NCBI RefSeq assembly: GCF_008727735.1 | Contig: NZ_CP044227.1 | Location: 2,119,001 to 2,183,000, forward strand | DNA length: 64,000 bases | Direction of reading: 5' to 3' | DNA from: Flintibacter sp. KGMB00164 | Lineage (GTDB): Bacteria; Bacillota; Clostridia; Oscillospirales; Oscillospiraceae | Shown here: in pieces, positions 50,125 to 51,644 of the stretch | Position numbering within the stretch: the first letter of the stretch is position 1 | Layout of the letters: every line of letters starts with the position of its first letter | Notes under the pieces: model-generated | Database searches by the model: none | Told to the model about the DNA's origin: nothing | The model's input: only the letters and a program-made list of their open reading frames with translations | Translations under genes and position numbers: made by a program

Positions 50125-50146
50125 CAGAGCCGAAAAAAGAAAAAAA

Positions 50147-50160
50147 CGGGCCTTCGCCCG
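50147..50160 (-). terminator. Second, distal terminator of the 50-kb noncoding RNA
   Basis: CGGGC-CTTC-GCCCG stem followed on the minus strand by TTTTTTCTTTTTT. It backs up the terminator at 50182-50234 and protects the convergent AEC gene. Confidence 0.65.
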
Positions 50161-50173
50161 CTTCCATACGATG

Positions 50174-50849
50174 ATAAAAAAGAAATGACCCTTGACTGCT
50201 TGTTTCGTAATCCAATGCAGTCAAGGGTCATTTCTGGTGGTTCTTGTTATCTAACATCATATGGTTACCTCACTTTCTATTGATTCGCATCTACCACACG
50301 TTCCGTTTACAGGATATCGATTTCTGCCATTCAACTTTTGTTGCCGCGCGTTCACTTCGCCGTGCATCCTCGCTTATGAGGTCCTGTGCTGTTGTGCGAT
50401 CTCATGCTTCCTGCAACATCCTGTGGCATTTGCGTGACCAGATATACACTGTATCCTACCAGCTGATCTTGTACGGGGTTCAGAGCTTACCATTGGTTTA
50501 CGCAGGTCCTGTTCGATTTCCCTGGCATTTTTGCTACCCATTGAATTCTTCTCTGCGTTCGGGATCTTGATTTCTCTTCAGCTTACCAAACTCTCATGAG
50601 TTTTTCCTGGTCCGCCGGGTACTGACAAGGTTTACCGAATTTTACTTGCTGATCTGGAATTCTTAAGATATAAACTTGCCTTGGATCTTTAAGGTGCCTT
50701 TGTTTTCCTTCGGGTCGATCTGTATTCCGATACAGGTTTGACAGCTTATGTTTTTGATTTACCAGGGATTTGATATATCTCAACTTTCTGCTGTCGGATC
50801 AGGTGTATCTGGTATCTAGGTTTGCTACCACATTGGTATCACCCTTTCT
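50174..50849 (-). ncRNA. Candidate large ornate noncoding RNA, about 650-680 nt
   Basis: A minus-strand transcription unit with a consensus promoter, strong terminators and no ORF with a ribosome binding site. The sequence is A-rich on the RNA strand and lower in GC than its flanks. Stems seen by eye (plus-strand positions): TACCA/TGGTA 50826-50838, GCTGTC/GACAGC 50790-50795 with 50740-50745, TTGA/TCAA 50770-50783, CTGTAT/ATACAG 50720-50735, AAACTC/GAGTTT 50588-50603, CCTC/GAGG 50368-50381. Size and isolation resemble OLE, GOLLD and ROOL RNAs; class not established. Confidence 0.65.
50182..50234 (-). terminator. Strong terminator of the 50-kb noncoding RNA
   Basis: An 18-bp perfect stem (GAAATGACCCTTGACTGC and its complement) around 17 bases, followed on the minus strand by T6. 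Confidence 0.85.
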
Positions 50850-50855
50850 GGTTAT

Positions 50856-50884
50856 AATATAGCACCCCCCCTATAATTTGTCAA
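50856..50884 (-). promoter_or_regulatory. Promoter of the large noncoding RNA
   Basis: Minus-strand TTGACA (50879-50884), 17-nt spacer, TATATT (50856-50861). Confidence 0.8.
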
Positions 50885-50938: not shown

Positions 50939-50970
50939 AAAAAGGGCGTGCCGCTGGGCACGCCCTTTTT
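50939..50970 (-). terminator. Terminator of the VanW / DUF2461 transcript
   Basis: AAAAAGGGCGTGCC stem (to 50952, paired with 50957-50970) with a GCTG loop; T5 on the minus strand. It overlaps the DUF2461 stop codon. Confidence 0.85.
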
Positions 50971-51644
50971 TAGATCCGTTCCGGCGGCGCATCGCCCGCC
51001 AGATCCATCAGATATTCGTAGTACGGTTTCAGGAAACAGAAGCCCTGTGCCACCTGCTGGGCCAGCTCAGGCTGGAACAGCAGACCCTCACAATTTTCAT
51101 CCCGGGTCAGGGAGATACTCTTGCGGTTGTACCAGGGGTACAGCAGAGGTCCCGGGTCCCCCTTGGGCCGCTTGTACTGCTCCCCTTCCAGCGCAAAGCC
51201 GGAGCCCTCCAGCTTCCGGGCCAGCTTCTCCAGGGGCTTGGGGTCCCGGTCGATGCGGGCACGGAGCTTGGCCATGGTAACAGGGGTGGGGTCGTAGCAG
51301 CCCATGCCGAAGCTGTAATACTCCGGGGCGATCTCAAAATAGAACGCCGGCAGACTGACCCACCGCTCCTTGGGACGGCGCAGGGTAAACCACAGGTGAT
51401 CCTTATAAGGTCCCCGGCCGTGGAGCCGCCGGGCATCCCGGTAGATCCGGGAGACATGGAGGTTGAGTCCCAGCTCCGGGGACTTCTCCTCCATGACCTG
51501 GTGGACCTCCTCCCCCAGCTGGCGCAGAGGCTCAGCCACGTAGGTCAGATACTCCTGCTTGTGCTCCAAAAACCAACTGCGTTCGTTATTGAAGCGGATC
51601 CCCCACAGGAAATCCACTGCTTGCTGTGAAAAACCTTGAAACAT
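50970..51644 (-). CDS. DUF2461 protein
   Basis: 224 aa. DUF2461 blocks visible: FLWGIRFNNERSWFLEHKQEY, VSRIYRDARRLHGRGPYKDHLWFTLRR and FYFEIAPEYYSFGMGCYDP. Cytoplasmic, function not established. Eleven bases after the vanW-family gene, so co-transcribed with it. ATG follows GAAGGAG. Confidence 0.88.
   Translation of the reverse strand: MFQGFSQQAVDFLWGIRFNNERSWFLEHKQEYLTYVAEPLRQLGEEVHQVMEEKSPELGLNLHVSRIYRDARRLHGRGPYKDHLWFTLRRPKERWVSLPAFYFEIAPEYYSFGMGCYDPTPVTMAKLRARIDRDPKPLEKLARKLEGSGFALEGEQYKRPKGDPGPLLYPWYNRKSISLTRDENCEGLLFQPELAQQVAQGFCFLKPYYEYLMDLAGDAPPERI

Follow-up and report, generated by a model that had tools for sequence, protein, structure and literature searches.

On the minus strand of a 64-kb stretch of DNA from Flintibacter sp. 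KGMB00164 (64,000 nucleotides, called the window throughout), a complete transcription unit lies between a DUF2461 gene (end 50970) and a convergent AEC gene (end 50124). An earlier note had read this unit as a large ornate noncoding RNA, which raises two questions. First, is the RNA noncoding at all? Second, what could such a unit do? Architecture and coding status were established by comparison with relatives, whereas the function is what we infer from them. We rate the architecture as new and the mechanism as a proposal, and the reading that we favour, at about even confidence, is that of a stand-alone gene whose RNA would be a ribosome-stabilised messenger for a micropeptide.

The layout of the unit agrees with what the earlier note had described. 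The promoter (50884..50856; all features below are on the minus strand and given 5′ end first) reads TTGACA, a 17-nt spacer with TG before the -10 element, and TATATT, with 11 of 12 matches, and the predicted RNA would be ~675 nt long with its 5′ end at ~50849. At the other end stands a terminator stem-loop (50235..50181) of 19 pairs, one more than the 18 bp counted before, followed in the sequence by a U-run (50180..50176) and by a second terminator-like hairpin (50165..50133, recognised by the terminator scan and in the sequence), which the convergent AEC gene may share as its own terminator. The drop in GC is likewise confirmed, with 0.40-0.49 in the unit as against 0.55-0.69 in the flanking genes (200-base windows), and the RNA strand is A-rich. 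The scans alone do not rise above chance, giving 3 promoter-like sites with 1.9 expected from shuffles and 4 terminator-like sites with 4.2 expected; promoter and terminator do rise above it because both RNA ends are conserved in other genomes. The two ends are matched by blastn in one same-genus genome with E of 1.5e-12 and 1.4e-9, and in 72 of 123 copies a similar promoter together with the first Shine-Dalgarno (SD) sequence, SD1, was recognised by pattern no more than 1000 nt upstream, although in tandem loci the recognised promoter can be that of the neighbouring unit; no such pair was recognised within 1000 nt in the other 51 copies, some of which lie near contig ends. The whole RNA folds with a z of -6.4, which owes much to the terminator, since the opposite strand reaches -6.7.

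The claim that the unit holds no credible ORF fails, as two short frames, AUG UGG UAG at 50833..50825 (mini-ORF1) and MMLDNKNHQK at 50260..50228 (mini-ORF2), both recur in relatives. SD1, AGAAAGGGTGATACC (50849..50835), lies at the predicted 5′ end of the RNA and is a near-complement of the 16S 3′ end GGATCACCTCCTTTCT, which was located in the same genome. SD1 and SD2 (AGAAAGTGAGGTAACC, 50278..50263) score 10.0 each; they are strong though not unique, a score of at least 10 being reached by 6 of the 57 long ORFs of the window at the best candidate start. Mini-ORF1 encodes Met-Trp. The arrangement of a minigene, an SD followed by an ATG and a stop after 2-3 codons, was found at 74 of 78 distinct 5′ ends in a count that required an SD1 motif, the exceptions being three ends without an ATG and one that reads 11 codons. 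The peptides of the 74 are MYR (20), MY (15), MRR (9), MYK (7), MW (6), MF (4) and others (13). A hairpin UACC..GGUA around the start of mini-ORF1, possibly formed in the window as UACCA-AUG-UGGUA (50838..50826), is suggested by co-occurrence, GGTA being present in 37 of 47 5′ ends of the ATACC type versus 3 of 29 of the AGTCC type. Because three of the 78 ends have no ATG, and locus L109 keeps the hairpin with its ATG absent, mini-ORF1 might matter as RNA.

Two or three modules of SD and 2-3-codon ORF stand serially in one RNA at L252, L253, L171, L239, L046 and L168, those of L252 being ATGTTCCGGTAA twice and ATGTTCCGGTAG. When a stricter expression and a loose promoter rule were applied to 237 upstream stretches, 93 gave no mini-ORF, 133 gave one and 11 gave two or more; among these 11, L037 and L187 are two neighbouring units, and L125, L232 and L251 look chance-like by eye. 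The 60 modules beyond nt 45 were counted without a shuffle control.

SD2 is strongly conserved in alignment A1, and ATGATGTTAGATAACAAGAACCACCAGAAATGA directly after it translates as MMLDNKNHQK-stop, the second ATG being the commoner start among relatives. An in-frame stop follows 8-9 codons from this second ATG in 121 of 122 close copies, and MLDNKSEQK is the commonest peptide (26 of the 122). L071 (4946-5067) is the sole copy without a stop at the usual place. The close set (122-124 copies) was gathered with a motif that fixes ATGTTAGAT, so codons 1-3 are freely tested by divergent hits only. Covariance models R1 and R2 were built to reach these weaker hits; the window sequence was used to train both, and its own score is therefore no evidence. 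The divergent set consists of 40 sense hits at 39 loci, and 39 hits were used after L230, which is cut off, had been left out. An ATG frame of 7-11 codons, mostly 8-10, is present in 36 of the 39, whereas 500 shuffles averaged 7.7 and never exceeded 16; with only the first ATG considered, the count is 32 of 37 in frame 0, 7 in frame +1 and 0 in frame +2. Mini-ORF2 starts with GTG in L223 and with TTG in L233, and none was found in L237, the weakest divergent hit (34.6 bits).

The variation among codons points the same way. In an entropy table of the 40 divergent rows, model-aligned and made without an ORF filter, a third-position excess is seen at codon 3 (0.17, 0 and 1.66 bits at positions 1, 2 and 3; Asp 25, Glu 14, Gln 1) and codon 5 (0.54, 0.65 and 1.55 bits; Lys in 28 of 40), is weak at codon 2 (1.54, 0.33 and 1.71 bits), and was not found in these rows at codons 4, 6 and 7. 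Synonymous codons are used in the divergent hits for Leu (TTA, TTG, CTG, CTT and CTC), Asp (GAT and GAC) and Glu (GAA and GAG). By a grouping of our own, the 39 hits comprise the kinds M-[LI]-D (10), D-F-K (12), E-P (12) and K-L-Q-I-D (4), with one of none, and the peptide is conserved in kind, as M-[LIV]-D-x-K, M-[LIV]-E-P and M-x-L-D-F-K. Read by eye from TTG, L258 and L259, which belong to another family of the class, give (M)SEPKNEQK and (M)AEPKSEEN. Since 36 of 39 divergent hits keep the frame and third positions vary at conserved codons, the mini-ORF2 frame is, on this comparative evidence, under coding selection, and the label "noncoding" is wrong for the window RNA. Frame and amino-acid kind are thus kept in divergent homologues, as is looked for in a small protein-coding ORF, and a conserved protein frame in homologues is one of the results that the earlier note had named as refuting its proposal. 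A version of the entropy table filtered for M-[LIVM]-[DE], a pattern that itself fixes codons 2-3, was left aside; it also caught a few apparently unrelated ORFs, e.g. MPRRGFEVRS and MIIRAAK. The peptide has no recognised function, and no paper was found in the literature searched for the strings MLDNK, MLDNKSEQK, MMLDNK and MLDIKSEQK.

How widely are such units distributed? The window RNA has blastn matches in 52 of 300 genomes of the family, and the listed pieces outside its own genome cover query positions 1-35 or 548-621 of 621; only the two RNA ends are conserved across relatives. A search of GTDB genomes with a degenerate 3′-end pattern gave 101 stretches; among the 80 listed, most are from metagenome-assembled genomes under the names Oscillospiraceae or Clostridia and a few from Lachnospiraceae or Eubacteriales, and Pseudoflavonifractor sp. 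An184, Lawsonibacter sp. and Faecousia also appear by name. At E 0.01, R1 matches 109 of 300 family genomes, and 14 of these are the own genome or others of its genus. Some of the matches counted are weak (E up to 0.009), and some are antisense hits on the palindromic stem. The non-matches listed include none from the same genus, a further 171 standing outside that list. In the order, 44 of 297 genomes match, namely the own genome, 9 of the same family and 34 across nine other families. Of 293 genomes from the class, 10 match R2 (the own genome, 7 clear and 2 doubtful), and L256 and L257 (E 1.5e-4 and 2.9e-4), which have no clear mini-ORF2, may be chance matches. In the phylum sample of 249, R2 matches the own genome only. 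On these searches, the units are spread across one order and thinly in its class. The window RNA has no blastn match in phage records or plasmids, and the exact 3′ motif, the form covered by that search, occurs 0 times in viral contigs.

A single clear copy is present in the window genome, where two further R2 matches are weak (E 0.34 and 3.7) and were not counted. Tandem arrays with differing interiors and peptide tails occur at 9 places in genome G349 (contigs C109 and C183) and at 7 in G193 (C56 and C76), the loci including L016, L198, L199 and L200. At L201 (G334, contig C18), an 11-kb stretch holds three units, with the peptides MLDTKSAQK, MIEPNNEER and MIEPKHSGNNP. Pfam was run on 60 of the 84 upstream and 65 of the 96 downstream neighbouring proteins, picked by us with one nearest neighbour per side. 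The most frequent downstream family is HTS (homoserine O-succinyltransferase), in 4 of the 65 scanned, and other repeated families are HTH_3 (4), glutamine synthetase (3) and alpha/beta hydrolase (3); within the first 25 entries of each list (77 and 109 families), none exceeds 4 apart from DUF2461, whose seven neighbours were kept deliberately as examples of the window's clade, so that 7 of 60 is not a frequency. In that clade the RNA has a DUF2461 gene upstream of it, as in the window (50970-51644) and at L033, L068, L103, L106, L120 and L126. As far as these neighbours tell, the units are free-standing, with unrelated genes next to them, and some occur in tandem.

In the favoured reading of a micropeptide messenger, initiation over and over on mini-ORF1 would keep a ribosome at SD1 and so protect the 5′ end of the RNA from decay, while on mini-ORF2 ribosomes would stop next to the 3′ stem and start again many times, as is reported for mccA. 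The stable RNA would thereby yield much micropeptide, which would be the active product, and the variable middle could tune access to SD2 or the lifetime of the RNA. According to PMC3997798, strong 5′ SDs stabilise long untranslated RNAs in Bacillus; such a STAB-SD resembles SD1 in its strength and in standing at the transcript's 5′ end, but SD1 is nearly always tied to a 2-3-codon ORF (74 of 78), and stabilisation is here our own proposal. Minigenes of two and six codons act in cis and may protect mRNA, as outlined in PMC8708949; the leader minigenes of axe-txe, LEE1 and LEE4 share with the window family an SD with a minimal ORF in cis, possibly with an effect on mRNA stability, but they precede a normal gene, whereas in the window family the downstream cistron is a micropeptide and the modules can repeat. 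The 7-codon message of mccA, the precursor of microcin C, is translated repeatedly without ribosome release (PMC6495379). Common to mccA and the window family are a very short ORF and a short terminated transcript, reiterative translation being favoured by shortness. However, mccA lies in an operon with modification enzymes, none of which was seen linked to the window family, and it has 7 codons, while the peptides of the window family mostly have 8-10 residues, conserve an acidic residue and Lys, and come after a 2-3-codon ORF. No locus of the mccA-like antibiotic-precursor type was seen: no modification or export family recurs among the nearest neighbours (60 upstream, 65 downstream; first 25 families each), and the neighbours scanned gave no sign of a linked enzyme, exporter or receptor.

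If the favoured reading is true, mini-ORF2 would be among the shortest conserved protein-coding genes, which is our judgement with mccA as the only comparison taken from a paper. Units that scan as large noncoding RNAs could then be messengers for micropeptides, missed because such short frames are ignored, and gut bacteria would offer a natural system for ribosome re-initiation on minimal ORFs and for RNA protection.

The main rival, which we consider rather unlikely, is that the RNA serves as a decoy: its strong SDs and minimal ORFs would park ribosomes, or sequester the 16S 3′ end or tRNAs, and translation would be tuned in this way, with the peptide secondary. Two or more strong SD sites per RNA, the tandem mini-ORF modules of some members, the tandem gene arrays of some genomes and the strong promoter would all suit it; however, a pure decoy has no need of the amino-acid kind that is conserved in mini-ORF2, the SD scores are high without being unique, and the window genome has one clear copy. 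A wider formulation is possible but offered tentatively: the units may represent an undescribed ribosome-engaging RNA class of Clostridia, in which one or more strong SDs each carry a 2-3-codon ORF, the body varies, and the last ORF, of ~8-10 codons, has its stop locked in the terminator. Such RNAs would act in trans, either parking ribosomes or filling the cell with a product that is among the shortest conserved ones, so that translation itself would be the function of the RNA.

The terminator stem bears on the messenger reading in a different manner, since mini-ORF2 ends within its 19 pairs, final codons and stop codon included. In A1 (52 sequences, sequence-aligned), 97.8% of cells are paired and two-sided changes occur at 16 of 18 stem pairs; in A9 (68 sequences), the values are 96.8% and 18 of 18, a count that leans towards the stem as A9 was aligned by a model containing it. 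Neither set of values was reached by any of 500 shuffles. The middle base of the stop codon and its partner are G-C in 31, A-U in 20 and G-U in 1 of the 52 sequences, and the covariation preserves TGA, TAA and TAG. Among the long ORFs of the window, 17 of 57 have a terminator-like hairpin in reach, whose stems begin 4-54 nt downstream of the stop codon's first base, whereas the stem of mini-ORF2 begins 5 nt before that base, as none of the 17 does. To place the stop codon inside a 19-bp stem is odd if the gene is to make much peptide; it suggests a role in cis and speaks against a simple peptide factory. The same layout, conserved with compensatory changes and seen in 0 of 17 window ORFs with a hairpin, would suit a translation-sensing terminator, in which a ribosome or nascent peptide at the mini-ORF2 stop would block folding of the stem and set the length or fate of the RNA. 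A short ORF followed by a terminator, the arrangement of leader peptides and attenuators, is indeed present. However, no consistent gene lies downstream for such a switch to control: the next ORF among 123 copies (at least 80 codons, chosen by length alone and in some cases spurious) is on the same strand in 65, on the opposite strand in 49 and absent in 9, and in the window the next gene is convergent. This weakens the reading as a cis-attenuator, and we regard a translation-sensing terminator as unlikely.

What, then, of the ornate interior on which the original proposal was built? The interior (50824..50279, 546 nt) is structured and fast-evolving, judging by covariation in six sequences and by fold z: a piece of 550 nt nearly coinciding with it has z = -3.3 (opposite strand -2.5), and two-sided changes are found at 15 of 65 predicted pairs in six relatives, a number reached by one of 500 shuffles. 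These six sequences are essentially two groups, with the structure predicted from the same alignment, and of the five measures, the one for further pair types did not exceed its shuffles (302 of 500). A hairpin CCUC..GAGG (50381..50368) has similar counterparts in orthologues (A3, A4 and A5) and is invariant in A3, and the consensus folds of A3 and A4 contain a long-range pairing of the mini-ORF1 region with SD2 and the start of mini-ORF2, a pairing that hardly varies. The terminator stem covaries among homologues, and the interior does so in part, within the window's clade. Across members, however, the interior ranges from 13 to 546 nt, the modules being by eye only 13 nt apart in L204 and 14 nt apart in L010, and it is alignable within clades but poorly between them. 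By these alignments, the interior is structured in places, its length is not conserved, and it is not needed for family membership. The idea that a functional interior makes this a large structured noncoding RNA, with the ORFs merely stabilising it, can draw on the covarying pairs of the window's clade, the z of -3.3 and the interior motifs common to members within clades; with interiors of 13-14 nt in two members and the ORF modules as the part conserved throughout, it appears very unlikely to us.

The assignment to a ROOL, GOLLD or OLE type fares no better. A search with Rfam, which included the models for ROOL, GOLLD, OLE, HEARO and raiA, gave no match to any of these five at the gathering threshold in the window or in 14 relatives; none of 17 relaxed matches was to one of them either, and these were rejected as hairpin look-alikes, the best being mir-2363 with 32.7 bits against a gathering score of 90. 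The 64-kb window contains 0 tRNAs, near which ROOL and GOLLD often lie, and an extended class-wide structure as in ROOL, GOLLD and OLE was not found, given the short interiors of L204 and L010 and an alignment limited to clades. ROOL, GOLLD and OLE (PMC12286853) are similar to the window RNA in size class and in having a folded interior, as in the window's clade, but the window family is without an Rfam match or a phage or tRNA setting, its interior is dispensable in some members, and it carries two short ORFs with strong SDs. Of the alternatives in the earlier note, a ROOL relative or a new class, the former is thus dropped and the latter stands in spirit. No description of the family was met in the literature searched, supplements and most subscription papers aside; it could be among the unnamed candidates in the supplements of PMC11109978 and PMC8040213.

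In arfA and brfA, the stop codon is lost when the terminator stem is processed, which leaves a non-stop message; a ribosome-rescue sensor of this kind, in which the stem would be processed to strip the stop codon, would fit the stop codon within the stem, but it is scarcely credible, the peptide being much shorter than those of arfA and brfA.

An interior motif, ACACGGCGGTGT or a near-match to it, is present in 11 of 244 stretches; as ACACG(G/A)CGGTGT, possibly a short hairpin, it occurs in the interiors of the distant members L117, L168, L169, L175, L176, L231, L249, L251, L253, L254 and L258.
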